From positions 1 through 7,147 of the forward strand of contig JAITEC010000075.1 in assembly GCA_031282225.1 (NCBI GenBank): DNA of 7,147 nt. The letters run 5' to 3'. A program made the position numbers and the translations under genes. The stretch is from Oscillospiraceae bacterium (GTDB taxonomy: Bacteria > Bacillota > Clostridia > Oscillospirales > Oscillospiraceae). Below the pieces are notes generated by a model that searched no databases, was not told where the DNA came from, and saw only the letters and a list, made by a program, of their open reading frames with translations. Shown piece after piece: positions 1 to 7,147 of this stretch; the stretch's first letter is position 1, and each line of letters begins with the position of its first letter.

Positions 1-3000
1 CCGCGTTCCGACGCGTCAAGCAGATGATATGTTTCGTGCCGCGCGATTTGCGTTGCGGTCGCGGTTGCGTCGTCCACGCGGACAACCAGGTCGCCGTCCG
101 CAGTGGCGACGCCGCGCACGTCCGCCCACGCGCCTTGATTATCCCTTATGCGGATTTTTCCCGCGACCAGCATCACATTACCGCCGGTGCCGCGCCGCAC
201 CTCATCTACCAGGCCCCTCTCCTCCTGCGTGTACTCGCTTTCGGAGACCACTTTCAACGACGCTTCCGCGCCGCCGTTCCACACGCCGAGGGAACGCGCG
301 CTTACTTTTTCGGCCCGTAAATTCTCGAAACGATCTCGTCCCTGATCTGCCGCCTGTCGGTACGCGGAAGCGTTATCTTGTCCTTGTTGGCCAAATACGT
401 CGCCAGCTGCGGCTCCGTCATCGACATCAGGAACCCGTTCTTGCCCTCTATCAGCATTCGCTGGGTCCCGCCGCCCTTGTTGTTCTCGTTGCCCTCGTTG
501 CCCGCCATCGCCTTCTGCCTCCCCATTCGTGTTGTTTGCCGCGCCCAGCGCGTCCAGCACAGCGCGTCTGTTCGCGGAGCCCTGTTCCGTCGTCCTCGCG
601 TCCTTGCCCTGCGCGGCGAACACGTTCGGCGACAGCTCGGCGAGCGCATCGCGCGCCGCCCTCCCGGCCTCCCTGTCTTGCCTTTGGCGCGCGGCCTCGT
701 ACTCCTCCGCCTGCTCGAGCGCCCATCCCGCCAGCCGCTTCTTTTCGCCAGCCGACAAACTGCCGTCTTCGTATATGCTATCATAAGCTCTATCGAACAG
801 TTTGCGCGCACCATCCCTCGGCAGAGTATATGCGCGGTCGGGATAATTGTCAAAATACTCCGTCTGCATGGGTGCTTGCTGCGCCGCTGGCGCTTGCTGC
901 GCCGCTGGTGCTTGCTGCGCCGCTGGCGCCTGCTGCGCCGCTGGTGCTTGCTGCGCCGCTGGTGCTTGCTGCGCCGCTGGTGCTTGCTGCGCCTGCATGG
1001 GCGCAGCCGAATTTTGGAACGTGCCGCTTTGTGCCGCCCCAAACTCCTCGTCGAGACCCATCGCTATCTCGCGCAGAACGGGGTACTCGTCAAGGAGGTC
1101 CAGGTCGGACTCCGACAGCGCCGCCGCGCCGTCGGACACCACGGTATTGACTATCTCCGCCGCTCTGCGCAGCGGCGGCCTCTCGTCCTCCGGTATGTCG
1201 TTGGCGTCAAACAAGTCGCCCATCGCCTCTGCGTCCACTTCCGCGCGCTCCGCCGCGGGCGTGCCGGGCGCGTCTTCCGCCCTACCTACCATCCCCTCCA
1301 CGGCCTTGTCGAGCCGAGCCTTGTCCGCGCCGCCAATACCCTTTTCTTCCAAGGCTTGCGCGATGCCGGCGTATGCCGCCGCGTCGCCCGCGGTCGGCGT
1401 CGCGTTGGCGGCCATCTCCTGCACGAGCCGCGTCGTCAGACGTCCCTGGTCTTCGGCAGTCGCGCCCATGCTCACGAGAGAACCCGCGCCGCCGAGGATC
1501 GCGCTGACTATTGCGCCCATCCCGGCCTCTGTGCCAACCTGAGACCAATCGAGCCTGGCATTGGGATCGACGCCGGACAGGCGCAACAGGAACGGGTCGG
1601 ATATCGCGGACACAGCTTCCTCCAGCGCCTCCCCGCCCACACCGGCGAGGTTGCGCACGCCCGTGGGGAGCGCGGATGTTATGCCCCGGTCGAGATAGCC
1701 CGCCAGTTTCGCAGCGGCACCGGCCACGCGTGGGCCCGCCTTGCCCGCCACGCCGCGCGCTATCGCGCCAGCACCCATAGCGAGGATACCGCCCAGAAGT
1801 TCCGAGCCGACCTCAACGCCTGCGACGCCCGCCGCATGGCGCATCGCCTTGTCAAAGTCGGTGCCGGAGGCTATATCCCGGGCGGCAGTACCCCCTCCGG
1901 CGGACACGCCCATCGCGGGCAGCCCGGCGCCGGGGGCGACCGCGTTGATCGCTATGGTGGGCAAGACCCCGGACAAAGCGTCCACGACAGCGTCCGCGCT
2001 TTTCGCCGCAGTCGAATAGTCGTAATCCTTGCCGAACTTCTCGCGCGAGACCTGCTCCCTGCGTTGCCCTTCCTCGCCTATCGCGCGCAGATCATTTTCA
2101 AGCTGTGAATTTATACTCTTCGTGACGCGCTTTGCGTCCTCCGCGAATTTGTCCGCACCCAGCCAACCCCCCACTATGCCGGCGTTCTGCGCGGCGTTGG
2201 AAGCCGCGCCCAGCCCGAGGGATAAAGCCCCTCCCATAAGGCTACCGGCGAAATCGCCGGACTTGCGCTCAAACGTATCATAGAGCCTTGCCGCGACGTT
2301 GTCGCTTATCCCGAGCTCCTTGCGCTTGGCTTTCAGATTGTTCTTGGCCTCCTCGACCGCCGCGCGCGCGGCGTCCACCGTCGCCATCCCGCCCGCGCTG
2401 CCGCCGTTGCCCATGCTCCTGGCAAATATCTCGTCGGACGCCTCGTCGGTATCGGTTGCCGCGCCAAGGGCATTGACCGCCGCGTCGTAGGCCGCCTTTG
2501 CGGCGACAAGCTCCGTGGCGTCGCGCCCGTTGACGGTGGGCAGCGTCGCCATGAGCCGCTCCCTCTCGCGGCGCGCAGCCGTCAGTTCCATCGCCGCCCT
2601 TTGCGCGTCTTGGCTTGTGCTCACAGGGCCGATGAAGGACGCCGGCGCGGGTGCCTGCGCGTCCCGCGCCCGCAGCAATTGCTCCGTAGCACGCAACTCC
2701 TGCCGCTCCAACAGTTTGACGCGCTCTGAGGCCGTAGGATACGCCAGCCCCGCCTCGGCGAATCTCAGCCGCTCGCGCTCATCCGCGTCCAATGCACGCG
2801 CCGTAGGTTGCGTGCTCGTCGGTCGCTTGAGTACACCCAGACCCACGTATCTGTTGATCTCCTCGGGCGAGTACAACTGCTCGAACGGTATCTCCCCGTC
2901 GATCGGACCCACAATCTCCGCCTTGCGCCGCTCCCTGCGCTCCAGCGCGTCATCGAGGAACCCCTTAAGTTGTGCCTGTCGATTCCGCTCGACCTCTTCC

Positions 3001-3164
3001 CGATTGCGCCGCTTGTTGCTCTCCGAAATCTGGACGCGCAGCGCATCCGAGCGGGCCGATACGGCCTTGTACTCCGCAGAGTCCACGGAGACCGACTCCC
3101 GCGCCTTGCGCAGACGCTCCCGCGATTTCTCCATCCAATCCGGCGCCAACGCCGTCCTTGCCAT
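1..3164 (-). CDS. Very large phage virion-type multidomain protein with zincin HExxH motif (partial, C-terminus beyond window)
   Basis: The frame is open for 1054 codons from the ATG at 3162-3164 to the window edge, with no stop, so the C-terminus is missing. The start has a strong Shine-Dalgarno GGAGGGG 5 nt upstream. Order of parts: residues 1-300 are charged and helical (MARTALAPDWMEKSRERLRK...), likely coiled coil. About 306-336 and 395-570 are Gly/Ala-rich and hydrophobic, the latter including GGEALEEAVSAISDPFLL. Residues 725-765 are an Ala-Gln-Gln-Ala-Pro-Ala repeat, about 770-865 charged helix, and 870-930 a Gln/Gly/Arg-rich linker. From about 960 a folded domain begins and ends with HETYH (H1043, E1044, H1047), the HExxH zinc-binding and catalytic motif of zincin metallopeptidases. 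Such giant proteins with membrane-like middles are known as internal or ejected virion proteins, or 'polyvalent' proteins, of Firmicutes phages. Entry with DNA, membrane interaction and proteolysis are inferred. The third zinc ligand would lie outside the window. It is last in the visible operon, 15 nt after the 574-aa gene. Confidence 0.85.
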   Translation of the reverse strand, partial: MARTALAPDWMEKSRERLRKARESVSVDSAEYKAVSARSDALRVQISESNKRRNREEVERNRQAQLKGFLDDALERRERRKAEIVGPIDGEIPFEQLYSPEEINRYVGLGVLKRPTSTQPTARALDADERERLRFAEAGLAYPTASERVKLLERQELRATEQLLRARDAQAPAPASFIGPVSTSQDAQRAAMELTAARRERERLMATLPTVNGRDATELVAAKAAYDAAVNALGAATDTDEASDEIFARSMGNGGSAGGMATVDAARAAVEEAKNNLKAKRKELGISDNVAARLYDTFERKSGDFAGSLMGGALSLGLGAASNAAQNAGIVGGWLGADKFAEDAKRVTKSINSQLENDLRAIGEEGQRREQVSREKFGKDYDYSTAAKSADAVVDALSGVLPTIAINAVAPGAGLPAMGVSAGGGTAARDIASGTDFDKAMRHAAGVAGVEVGSELLGGILAMGAGAIARGVAGKAGPRVAGAAAKLAGYLDRGITSALPTGVRNLAGVGGEALEEAVSAISDPFLLRLSGVDPNARLDWSQVGTEAGMGAIVSAILGGAGSLVSMGATAEDQGRLTTRLVQEMAANATPTAGDAAAYAGIAQALEEKGIGGADKARLDKAVEGMVGRAEDAPGTPAAERAEVDAEAMGDLFDANDIPEDERPPLRRAAEIVNTVVSDGAAALSESDLDLLDEYPVLREIAMGLDEEFGAAQSGTFQNSAAPMQAQQAPAAQQAPAAQQAPAAQQAPAAQQAPAAQQAPAAQQAPMQTEYFDNYPDRAYTLPRDGARKLFDRAYDSIYEDGSLSAGEKKRLAGWALEQAEEYEAARQRQDREAGRAARDALAELSPNVFAAQGKDARTTEQGSANRRAVLDALGAANNTNGEAEGDGGQRGQREQQGRRDPANADRGQERVPDVDDGAAAGDVFGQQGQDNASAYRQAADQGRDRFENLRAEKVSARSLGVWNGGAEASLKVVSESEYTQEERGLVDEVRRGTGGNVMLVAGKIRIRDNQGAWADVRGVATADGDLVVRVDDATATATQIARHETYHLLDASER
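870..992 (-). repeat. 18-bp tandem repeat coding seven AQQAP(A) units
   Basis: Seven near-identical 18-bp units, the last lacking its final codon, encode Ala-Gln-Gln-Ala-Pro-Ala at residues 725-765 of the large virion protein. Units differ mostly at third codon positions (GCA/GCG, CAA/CAG), so the peptide is better kept than the DNA. The block is bounded by Met-Gln on both sides (MQ-AQQAP...AQQAP-MQ). It probably forms an extended, flexible linker between the hydrophobic middle and the C-terminal helical and zincin parts. Whole-codon units allow copy-number change without frameshift. Confidence 0.95.
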
Positions 3165-4936: not shown

Positions 4937-6577
4937 TCAATGCCCTCCGCGCAACGATCGCGCCGTGCTCCCCGTATACATCTCGCGCGTAATCCCGAAC
5001 ACCTTGCAATCCCCGGCACCCGAGATCCGCAACCGAAAATGGTCCGCCCGGCGCGGCACTATGGGCACCGTGAAGCTCCTCTTTTTCGTGGCCAGGTGGC
5101 GCCATATGCGCTCCCACGCGCCCACACTGTCGTACCGTATCCACATCTCCATCTCCGCGCCCTGCTCCGCCTCCGCGCGCAAATAGAACTTAGTAACACC
5201 CTTTTTTTCGGGTGCCCGTTCGGAGAAGTCCGCAAACTCCACACTCCACTCGACTCGCTCCAACTCGCCGCCATCCGGCTGCCCCTTGACGTTCCCCACA
5301 GCCCACAGCCCCCCGTCGTCACGGAGCATGTACAAATCCTCTCCGCAATAGGCAAAGCCCACCACACGCGAAGCGTCTTCCCTGTGCCACAGTCCCCGCT
5401 CTGTGTCGTACACAAACAAGTGCGGCGCCCCGTTCCTGTCCAGCATGGATATGTAGTACTTGCGCCTGTCACTGCCCGCCACGCCGTGCGTGTACAGTTC
5501 GCCGCCGAACGCCTCGTACTTCTGCGTCGGCATACCTCCCGTGTAAGACACAACGCCATTGCGAGACAGATAGAAGAGTATGTCGCCCGCGATGGCAAGG
5601 CTCCCCCCGCTGCCGGCCTGTAAGCCCGTGGAGAACGAGGCCGACGTACTAAAATTGTCCGGCTCCGTGCCGAACACCTTGTAGATGGCGCCCTCTTTGA
5701 AAAAAACGGGATACCCCATGAATGATACACACCCCGTGAAATCCCCCTCGCTCCCCACCGCGACCGACCAACTGTCGGACGCCAGCCCATCAAACGAGAA
5801 CCAGTTGAAGACGTCTCCCAGTTTCGATGCGAAAATTTCGTCTCCCTTGCACCCCCACAACCTGTTCTCGTTTGAGCACAGAAAATCCATGTCCGGCATA
5901 TCCCGCGAAACAGTTATCGCCTCCGGCTCCGTGTACGCGACCGGGGCCTCAGCCGTCCCGTCAAGCACGAAGGCGTTCTCATAGAAGATGAGGCTGTGCC
6001 CATCGCCCGATATCTCCCGTATTATTGCCGTCTTGTTGTTCTCCGGGTGCACCGTGCACCCGGAGATGGAAACTGCGTCGCGCTCCTTGAAATGATCGTT
6101 GAAGTCGACTCCCGGCACCGTGAGTGTGTTTCTCTCGGCGGTGATCCCGTATATGCTCCCATTTGCGAACGTGGCACCGCCATCCTCCGACGTTGCGCTC
6201 GCCTCGACGCGCCCGAACTCCCCAGTCAAGACATTATAGTACGCCTTGTCGGGTAACACGACGATGTACGCGCCCATCTCCCCAAACGTCTTGACAGAGT
6301 CAGCAACCTCGCCAACCAGCTCGCCGCCATAATATAAGTCCGTGCCGTCCGCGTACATCAACCCGTCCCGCGAGAAAATCCCGTTGGGCCGCGCCAGCTC
6401 CGCGCGCAGCACCCTCGGCGATCGCGGCGACAGCACCGGAGCGTAATCGCCCGTCATGTTGTGCATATCGTAGATATCCCCATCGCCGGCGTACAAATTG
6501 TGGTTGTACCCACCAAACGACACCTGCGTCAGCTTGCGCAGCCCACTCCCTCTTGGCAACATCGGCAACATCGGCAT
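4937..6577 (-). CDS. Conserved phage virion protein, probably a beta-propeller-like tail or head-tail component
   Basis: The 546-aa protein starts at the ATG 6575-6577, which has GGGGG 8 nt upstream; the earlier in-frame TTG at 6592 has only an AT-rich leader. Residues 22-55 carry FGGYNHNLYAGDGDIYDMHNMTGDYAPVLSPRSPR, a signature I know from a family common in Firmicutes phages, usually unnamed. The body is beta-rich with repeated short blade-like strands (for example NGIFSRDGLMYADGTDLYYGG and HLFVYDTERGLWHREDASRVVGFAY), suggesting a propeller fold as in tail-hub or DNA-stabilising head-closure proteins. The last ~90 residues hold MEMWIRYDSVGAWERIWRHL, then IVPRRADHFRLRISGAGDCKVFGITREM, also typical of the family. 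It is soluble, with no signal peptide or membrane span. It lies 32 nt upstream of the 574-aa gene. The family is fairly sure; the exact virion position is inference. Confidence 0.88.
   Translation of the reverse strand: MPMLPMLPRGSGLRKLTQVSFGGYNHNLYAGDGDIYDMHNMTGDYAPVLSPRSPRVLRAELARPNGIFSRDGLMYADGTDLYYGGELVGEVADSVKTFGEMGAYIVVLPDKAYYNVLTGEFGRVEASATSEDGGATFANGSIYGITAERNTLTVPGVDFNDHFKERDAVSISGCTVHPENNKTAIIREISGDGHSLIFYENAFVLDGTAEAPVAYTEPEAITVSRDMPDMDFLCSNENRLWGCKGDEIFASKLGDVFNWFSFDGLASDSWSVAVGSEGDFTGCVSFMGYPVFFKEGAIYKVFGTEPDNFSTSASFSTGLQAGSGGSLAIAGDILFYLSRNGVVSYTGGMPTQKYEAFGGELYTHGVAGSDRRKYYISMLDRNGAPHLFVYDTERGLWHREDASRVVGFAYCGEDLYMLRDDGGLWAVGNVKGQPDGGELERVEWSVEFADFSERAPEKKGVTKFYLRAEAEQGAEMEMWIRYDSVGAWERIWRHLATKKRSFTVPIVPRRADHFRLRISGAGDCKVFGITREMYTGSTARSLRGGH
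6555..6577 (-). repeat. 9-bp repeat at the start of the 546-aa gene
   Basis: Two and a half copies of GGCAACATC (plus-strand reading) encode the MPMLPMLP opening of the protein. The repeat duplicates candidate ATG codons at 6577, 6571 and 6562, so the exact start could be any of these; the ribosome site favours the first. Confidence 0.75.
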
Positions 6578-6585
6578 AAATTGCG

Positions 6586-6590
6586 CCCCC
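6586..6590 (-). promoter_or_regulatory. Ribosome binding site of the 546-aa gene
   Basis: Minus-strand GGGGG lies 8 nt before the ATG at 6575-6577, after a T/A-rich leader. The alternative TTG at 6590-6592 overlaps this G run and has no G-rich site of its own, so the ATG is preferred. The match is weaker than those of the two downstream genes. Confidence 0.5.
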
Positions 6591-6650
6591 AAAAAAATTT
6601 TTCAAAATCTTCAAAAAACTATTGACATGTCCGAATAGCAGCTGTATAAT
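6591..6650 (+). promoter_or_regulatory. Perfect consensus sigma-70 promoter with A-tract UP-like region
   Basis: TTGACA at 6622-6627 and TATAAT at 6645-6650 are both exact consensus hexamers, 17 nt apart, on the plus strand. A-tracts at 6591-6597, 6604-6607 and 6613-6618 precede the -35 with centres about 10-11 bp apart, like an UP element. Transcription should start near 6657 and run away from the 546-aa gene, opposite to every coding gene here. The only thing downstream before the terminator is the CRISPR-repeat-bearing RNA, so this is its promoter. The perfect match suggests constitutive, strong host-polymerase expression, possibly from the start of infection. Confidence 0.9.
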
Positions 6651-6678
6651 AGCCGTGGTCGTGAGAGATTGCGGCCAT

Positions 6679-6711
6679 GTCGTAGCCCTCCGGGACTACG
6701 TGGATTGAAAC
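6679..6711 (+). CRISPR. Subtype I-C-like CRISPR repeat with a bulged A (33 nt)
   Basis: It begins GTCG and ends CGTGGATTGAAAC, the hallmark ends of subtype I-C repeats. The RNA folds as CGTAGCCC (6681-6688), loop TCC (6689-6691), GGG (6692-6694), bulged A6695, CTACG (6696-6700): an 8-bp stem with a three-base loop. Deleting A6695 restores the standard 32-nt I-C length with a perfect stem. The last 11 bases, TGGATTGAAAC, match the usual I-C 5' crRNA handle. It is the only good copy in the window. Confidence 0.85.
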
Positions 6712-6746
6712 GAAAATATCACCAGTGAAGAACCCACCATCGCAAA
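6712..6746 (+). CRISPR. 35-nt spacer-like segment
   Basis: The stretch between the good repeat and the degenerate repeat-like hairpin is 35 nt, inside the usual 33-36 nt range of I-C spacers. It begins GAAAATATCACC and ends CATCGCAAA. I saw no match to it by eye elsewhere in the window. Its protospacer, if any, is unknown. If the unit is an anti-CRISPR RNA this segment may be a non-targeting filler. Confidence 0.5.
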
Positions 6747-6781
6747 GACGTTGAACGACATCGTCGCAACGGGAAAAGAGA
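6747..6781 (+). CRISPR. Degenerate second repeat-like hairpin
   Basis: It starts exactly 68 nt after the first repeat. GACGTTG aligns with GTCGTAG (5 of 7), and CAACG-GGA aligns with CTACGTGGA. The basal stem CGTTG (6749-6753) / CAACG (6767-6771) matches the first repeat's CGTAG/CTACG except for a swapped T-A for A-T pair, so pairing is kept. An inner ACG (6755-6757) / CGT (6762-6764) helix is capped by ACAT. The apical half and the handle are otherwise lost, and its 3' end runs into the terminator. It is probably a decayed or repurposed repeat, but could be an unrelated hairpin. Confidence 0.4.
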
Positions 6782-6801
6782 GCGCTTCGGCGCTCTCTTT
6801 T
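6774..6801. terminator. Bidirectional intrinsic terminator with UUCG tetraloop
   Basis: A perfect 12-bp inverted repeat: AAAAGAGAGCGC (6774-6785), loop TTCG (6786-6789), GCGCTCTCTTTT (6790-6801). On the plus strand the loop is the very stable C(UUCG)G and the stem ends in a U run, so it ends the small RNA. On the minus strand the same hairpin, also ending in T residues, lies 12 nt after the stop of the fibre-like gene and should end its transcript. Confidence 0.9.
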
Positions 6802-6812
6802 CTGTGCGCCCG

Positions 6813-7147
6813 TCAAGACTTCGCATACGTCATCCAAATATCATACGGCGTACCATTGCGCGCCTCAGTCTTTAAATATTGGAGCAAATTCACGCTACCG
6901 CTGGAGCTGACGTATACGCTGGCGAGCGCCGTTACACTCGTGCCGTCGTAGTCGCAGTAAGGTATCGGGAGGCTGTTGTTGCTCACCCCGCTAAGTACAG
7001 ACCCGCCGAGCGACCGTAATTTGATGCCGGCGCTGACGTTGCCGATGGTGTTGACTGTCTTAGTGCCGGCAGCGATAGAGCCGGTTATCGTACCCGAGAA
7101 CCGCTTCCCAAACCGCCCGTCGCCGAAATCAATCTCTGCGTTCACCG
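6813..7147 (-). CDS. Fibre-like phage virion protein, C-terminal end (partial)
   Basis: The frame enters from the window edge and ends at TGA 6813-6815, giving at least 110 residues. A GTG at 7143-7145 could be read as a start, but the frame is open to the edge and no upstream ribosome site can be seen, so it is probably internal. The sequence is rich in Gly, Ser, Thr and Val, with alternating strands (DFGDGRFGKRFSGTITGSIAAGTKTV...) and ends YDIWMTYAKS. DFGDGRFGKR and the Trp-x-x-Tyr-x-Lys ending resemble C-termini of Firmicutes phage tail- or head-fibre proteins. No cysteine cluster or enzyme motif is visible. It is followed by the bidirectional terminator, so it is the last gene of its transcript unless readthrough occurs. 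Receptor binding or virion decoration is inferred from composition only. Confidence 0.75.
   Translation of the reverse strand, partial: VNAEIDFGDGRFGKRFSGTITGSIAAGTKTVNTIGNVSAGIKLRSLGGSVLSGVSNNSLPIPYCDYDGTSVTALASVYVSSSGSVNLLQYLKTEARNGTPYDIWMTYAKS

Follow-up and report, generated by a model that had tools for sequence, protein, structure and literature searches.

What could a single CRISPR repeat, provided with its own promoter and terminator, be doing between the genes of a phage? The question is raised by a stretch of 7,147 nucleotides of Oscillospiraceae DNA (the window, i.e. the whole stretch that was analysed), which is the entire contig C48 of a genome bin of 1.22 Mb (224 contigs, 63.6% complete). 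The first-pass annotation had seen here a self-contained phage RNA gene and had left it two roles, that of an RNA anti-CRISPR or that of a one-spacer mini-array. Our analysis makes the first of these the probable one: the unit would be a stand-alone phage cassette for a predicted small RNA anti-CRISPR, a guide-RNA decoy directed against the type I-C Cascade of the host.

The predicted transcription unit and its repeat

The cassette is intergenic on viral sequence: it lies on the plus strand between a phrog_511 gene and the next frame, both of which are encoded on the minus strand (Table 1). The orientation opposite to the surroundings is thus as first described, one of the two neighbours being a virion gene. 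At least 2311 homologues of the protein encoded at 4937-6592 were found in the protein database (the 7998 candidates with the most shared words were scored), the frame at 6813-7145 is likely to be a gene's C-terminal portion, and the other three long frames examined have no Pfam and no PHROG family. The description of the unit as self-contained and free of cas genes holds as well: promoter, one repeat and terminator follow each other, and no cas gene is seen on the contig, the four long frames of its 7147 bases matching no PADLOC model and no Pfam family. In these general family searches, no acr gene was seen beside the cassette. A stop-free plus-strand frame (6709-6951) extends from the repeat across the terminator and reaches into the next gene; it looks protein-like but has no PHROG match at E 1, and was taken as chance. 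At the other end of the contig, tandem 18-bp units (865-1000) in the minus-strand frame 3-3164 give rise to a low-complexity stretch of the AQQAPA type.

Table 1. Coordinates of the cassette and of the flanking genes in the window
Feature	Position	Strand	Basis or remark
Internal-virion-protein gene, left flank	4937..6592	-	546 aa if the start is the ATG at 6577; phrog_511, E 2.5e-67
UP-element-like A/T-rich stretch	6593..6621	+	Immediately 5' of the -35 box; sequence; putative function
Sigma-70 promoter TTGACA-17-TATAAT	6622..6650	+	12/12 consensus positions, spacer 17
Predicted transcript 5' end and leader hairpin	6657..6676	+	8 bp, 4-nt loop; start predicted from the -10 box
Single type I-C-like CRISPR repeat	6679..6711	+	Covariance model, shuffles, same-genus comparison
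Predicted 11-nt 5' handle TGGATTGAAAC after Cas5c cleavage	6701..6711	+	Identical in the same-genus repeat
Tail (guide-like segment), repeat to terminator	6712..6772	+	No other match found
Intrinsic terminator hairpin	6773..6802	+	13-bp stem, TTCG loop, T-rich 3' arm
Right-flank frame at the contig end	6813..7145	-	Open reading frame; without Pfam or PHROG match

Both signals that delimit the unit are present, as first described. A scan of the window found seven promoter-like sites where 1.8 are expected, and the one in front of the repeat is the sole site with all 12 consensus positions. The leader hairpin is stable (-10.5 kcal/mol, z -4.1, none of 200 shuffles equally good), and the plus strand of the 145-nt unit folds at z -2.89. 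The terminator begins 61 nt after the repeat; in Rfam it is a sub-threshold match, on both strands, to the RF02066 hairpin. It is absent from the list of a simple terminator scan, apparently because its T-run lies within the 3' arm.

The repeat at 6679-6711 is real and more than a chance resemblance. A covariance model built on 18 distinct I-C repeats of the host order ranks it highest in the window (19.9 bits, E 0.00065), the next-best match being 6077-6093 (E 0.33), with E-values that are rough in this tool. Its terminal 13-mer CGTGGATTGAAAC has an expected count of 0.0001 in the window. The I-C repeat of a same-genus genome is matched here at 24 of 33 positions at best, as compared to at most 22 in 60 dinucleotide shuffles. 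In Rfam the repeat is a sub-threshold match to CRISPR-DR9 (18.6 bits, cut-off 45), and taken alone the 33 nt fold no better than shuffled sequences (z -1.26, 22 of 200 equally good). The assignment to subtype I-C is supported: the GTCG start and the 13-nt end match the same-genus repeat. The stem, with its bulged A and its 3-nt loop, is non-canonical. The repeat is solitary by the criterion that no further repeat, even a partial one, lies within 100 bp; nowhere else in the window are 23 or more of the 33 positions matched, and no second copy with up to three mismatches is present in the window's own genome.

Host systems, related phages and similar cassettes

A host lineage with a similar I-C repeat exists, and it belongs to the same genus. 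Contig C72 of the genome G002 carries a complete I-C operon of cas3, cas5c, cas8c, cas7c, cas4, cas1c and cas2, followed by an array. In the order as a whole, two I-C-type repeat ends at array spacing are present in 35 of 198 genomes (own genome included), and of 20 genomes searched (own included), three, among them G002, have Cas8c, the same three also having Cas5c over the cut-off. In the window's own genome neither cas5c nor cas8c was found, nor the G002 repeat; since that genome is 63.6% complete, their absence decides nothing. Another member of the genus, G001, encodes a 72% relative of the virion protein. A comparison of the window with the 298 spacers of 30 array loci gave, among the matches listed, short chance hits no longer than 14 nt. 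Away from its main array, G002 contains a second, decayed I-C unit (L276, contig C9, 640-810), in which an array-type leader and one good repeat (719-751) are followed by a short spacer and by part of a further repeat (782-803).

The array repeat of G002, GTCGCTCCCCTCGCGGGGAGCGTGGATTGAAAC, shares with the repeat of the window the GTCG start and the CGTGGATTGAAAC end, i.e. positions 1-4 and 21-33 are identical. All nine differences fall within positions 5-20, which has a probability of 0.0003 if they were randomly spread. At the stem pairs 5-20, 6-19 and 7-18 both sides are changed and the pairing is retained. Seven of the nine differences, however, affect stem positions that Cas5c possibly reads, and this speaks against the decoy. 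Even the last bases agree: both repeats end in AAAC, and among the 30 array loci compared, three end in C and 27 in T. This is the pattern of a stem conserved in its shape and of a repeat end conserved in its sequence.

Conservation of repeat and promoter in related phages, which had been named as a test of the annotation, was not observed. Among the loci of the neighbouring gene's family, of which the best 80 of 335 viral and the best 80 of 119 genome loci were scanned, the I-C repeat model found nothing convincing (best E-values 0.41 and 0.27). The bare 10-mer TGGATTGAAA is present in one of these 160 loci (L074), without a good repeat (model score 16.9 bits). The IMG/VR relatives of the neighbouring gene were found via an alignment and not via single-protein queries. 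In the closest relative for which DNA was compared (L112, 79% identity; the protein P0002 is as close, the DNA comparison took in L112), about 23 nt separate the genes as judged by eye and the insert is absent, and in L113 (71%) and L114 (70%) the gap, again by eye, contains different sequence and no cassette. A hairpin resembling a terminator is present in the gap of L114. The exact consensus promoter combined with the repeat end was found in the window only among 400 family genomes (own included), and the same holds for the repeat with up to three mismatches among 99 genomes. With neither repeat nor promoter shared by the related phages, the unit gives the impression of an insertion peculiar to its lineage.

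Similar cassettes do, however, occur in other phage contigs in IMG/VR. Three pattern scans yielded 45 loci; as the patterns require promoter boxes (in one scan only TATAAT), the promoters of the cassettes found are selected for and give no independent support. At 11 of the 45 loci the copy lies less than 400 nt from another one; these are arrays or near-arrays and include L267, which has a neighbouring copy. At the other 34 the copy found by the pattern is solitary, and ten of these are full cassettes (L192, L193, L194, L206, L211, L253, L260, L264, L268 and L272), defined by a hairpin before the GTGGATTGAAAY end, a position outside frames of at least 70 aa, and a strong terminator (scan score at least 18) located 19 to 70 nt after the repeat. 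The window itself fails on the frames, because a mechanical 72-aa minus-strand frame (6619-6837) overlaps its cassette. The ten further cassettes, with promoters of 9 to 12 of 12 consensus positions, reside on nine records, L194 and L211 sharing one.

The remaining solitary loci fall into several groups. L198, L209, L210 and L262 have the hairpin and lie outside frames, with terminators that are weak or absent by the scan; in the near-identical contigs L250, L252 and L263 the terminator has a shorter stem followed by eight T, the L250 copy overlapping a mechanical frame. A hairpin inside a frame is present at L196, L197 and L201, and also at L251, L259 and L271, where the stems are A/T-rich. 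Finally, no or only a poor hairpin was found at 11 loci (L195, L249, L254, L256, L257, L258, L261, L265, L266, L270 and L273), all of them inside frames, and they thus behave as chance matches should.

Eleven records were checked over their whole length for exact GTGGATTGAAAY, a check that would miss degenerate copies: it occurs once in each, except in the record with two cassettes. Cas7c is absent from all ten viral records checked. At the seven loci at which flanking genes were scanned, the neighbours encode a tail assembly chaperone (L194), portal and terminase (L211), endolysin (L193), major head and virion structural proteins (L210) and an internal-virion-type protein (L206), or are unnamed (L192, L209). 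It might have been a rule that cassettes face against their neighbours, but both neighbours are opposed in only six of 11 cases (window, L192, L194, L206, L211, L264), with mixed orientation in four (L193, L253, L268, L272) and the same orientation in one (L260); the arrangement is common, not general. Leader hairpins like that of the window, picked by eye among 15 folds, precede L192 (z -5.2), L253 (z -3.1) and L272 (z -3.4). On the record IMGVR_UViG_2820303403_000003 (L194, L211), two solitary I-C cassettes that differ from each other adjoin virion genes, and a third solitary repeat (L210) is found in IMGVR_UViG_2820303403_000001, which is from the same source.

What the RNA may do

In type I-C systems, Cas5 cuts the repeat and produces an 11-nt 5' handle (PMC5965380). 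For the window, we propose that RNA polymerase would make an RNA of about 145 nt, starting at about 6657, and that Cas5c of the host would recognise its hairpin and the conserved GTGGATTGAAAC end and then cut it. The cut would leave the 11-nt handle (6701-6711) on the 3' piece, and Cas5c would stay held on the hairpin. On the handle, Cas5c and Cas7c would nucleate and extend along the tail of about 62 nt, a guide that matches no target; in other words, handle and tail may seed non-productive Cas7c binding. With Cas5c and Cas7c tied up in this way, fewer working Cascades would form on the host's own crRNAs. The reading as a decoy rests on the layout, the match to the G002 repeat, the compensatory changes in the stem, the single repeat, the lack of a recognisable cas gene on the contig, the absence of the insert from L112 and the recurrence of the layout in other phages.

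The second role offered by the annotation was that of a one-guide mini-array: host Cas5c would process the single repeat, and the tail would serve as a functional guide directed at a rival phage or at a gene of the host. Such a use has a precedent in the virus-borne mini-arrays of interviral conflicts (PMC6858448), and the tail is guide-like: 37 nt separate the repeat from the next predicted hairpin, which is about the sum of a 33-nt spacer and the three unpaired nt of an I-C crRNA. This hairpin (6749-6771), however, is not a significant fold (z -0.62), and for the same reason we abandoned the idea that it serves in the mimicry of a crRNA. Moreover, a mini-array should have at least two repeats around a spacer and the window has one, and exact and near matches revealed no protospacer in its own genome, in IMG/VR or in 50,697 phage records. 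With each sixth base left free, the first 33 nt of the tail have no other match in the own genome at up to three mismatches and no exact match in IMG/VR, and a blastn search of the 62-nt tail against the phage records gave eight weak matches, none of which covers 80%. As there is no second repeat and no protospacer was found, we prefer the decoy, i.e. the solitary-repeat RNA fits better, and regard the mini-array as unlikely.

It is still less probable that we are dealing with a regulatory small RNA, or an antisense RNA, from the late operon of the phage whose likeness to a CRISPR repeat is a coincidence. The RNA would indeed be antisense to a gap in the minus-strand virion transcript. Since the terminator is symmetric, with an A-run before and a T-run after the hairpin, it could act on the minus strand too and may end the virion transcript before it reaches the internal virion gene; L114, with its hairpin in the same gap, would fit this. 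However, chance would not be expected to produce an exact 13-nt I-C end together with the GTCG start, the length of 33 nt and a paired stem, and these features reappear together in other phage contigs, next to different genes.

At a similarly low level we place the idea that the unit is what decay has left of a host array, or that it serves as a site for integration into arrays, in either case with no present function as an RNA. The decayed leader, repeat, spacer and partial repeat on contig C9 of G002 show that such remnants exist in the genus. Furthermore, of 26 stretches 5' of array repeats, some of which are not true leaders, the one upstream of the G002 array aligns best with the region 5' of the window's repeat (score 29, next 23; 17 of 2000 shuffles equally good), and TGAGAG is common to both regions 10-11 nt past the -10 box. 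The resemblance of the leaders is weak, however: in the part after the -10 box, the comparison with C72 is not significant (4530 of 20000 shuffles as good) and that with C9 is marginal (589 of 20000), and the unrelated viral cassette L272 scores equal to C9. A perfect consensus promoter, a terminator, an adjoining virion gene and a stem whose pairing is preserved through double changes are also at odds with decay. What the upstream similarity suggests is a possible capture of the cassette from the host's own leader-repeat.

If the decoy is the correct reading, it may have company. It is conceivable, but on balance doubtful, that a largely uncounted class of stand-alone I-C RNA anti-CRISPRs exists, captured from host leader-repeat regions, in which handle and stem pairing are kept while the stem sequence drifts, and which have their own promoter and terminator, often a leader hairpin, and sit like morons in gaps of virion gene clusters, commonly opposed to the neighbours.

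Relation to known solitary repeats and mini-arrays

The kind of element is already known, as RNA anti-CRISPRs were published in 2023 (PMC10651486). A literature search from 2023 on for phage type I-C RNA anti-CRISPRs and solitary repeats listed this paper and two reviews. Its census comprises 2,103 viral solitary repeats, obtained with a filter of at least 90% identity to a database of 17,823 repeats (PMC10651486). The repeat of the window reaches 20 to 26 of 33 positions, i.e. 61-79% identity, with 19 distinct 33-nt repeats of the host order; as far as these 19 can tell, it lies below this filter, so that relatives with diverged stems may be under-counted. Censuses based on identity may thus miss solitary repeats with compensatory stem drift, and searches based on structure could add members. 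The words 'opposite', 'orientation' and 'moron' are absent from the main text of PMC10651486; some of the IMG/VR cassettes may already be among the Racr candidates in its supplements. An isolated I-C decoy candidate and a host genus with operon and array make the jamming of a Cas5c system, which lacks Cas6, by repeat RNA testable.

The virus-borne mini-CRISPR arrays resemble the unit in that virus-encoded repeats are thought to use the Cas proteins of the host (PMC6858448). They are arrays against other viruses, whereas the window has one repeat and a tail for which no target was found. Closer is RacrIF1 from a Thiocystis violascens prophage, an intergenic element with one repeat and a length sufficient for a Cas7 filament: this solitary I-F repeat RNA inhibits interference by drawing Cas6f and Cas7f into an aberrant subcomplex (PMC10651486). 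RacrIF1 is strongly expressed from its own promoter (PMC10651486); the window has its own promoter and a predicted RNA. Yet RacrIF1 belongs to type I-F, is processed by Cas6f and, as reported, the bound RNA is the part upstream of the cut (PMC10651486), whereas type I-C uses Cas5c, and this counts against a direct transfer of the mechanism. Closest in type is RacrIC1 from a Bifidobacterium pseudocatenulatum prophage, likewise a solitary I-C repeat on a phage element and expected to act against host I-C Cas proteins, which was experimentally shown to give a strong advantage to a targeted phage (PMC10651486). RacrIC1 is part of a bicistronic RNA with acrIC5 (PMC10651486), whereas the unit in the window has a perfect promoter and a terminator of its own. 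As read from its sequence, what is different here is a free-standing I-C cassette with its own predicted terminator, opposed to its neighbours, and with a stem that has drifted strongly and is still paired.
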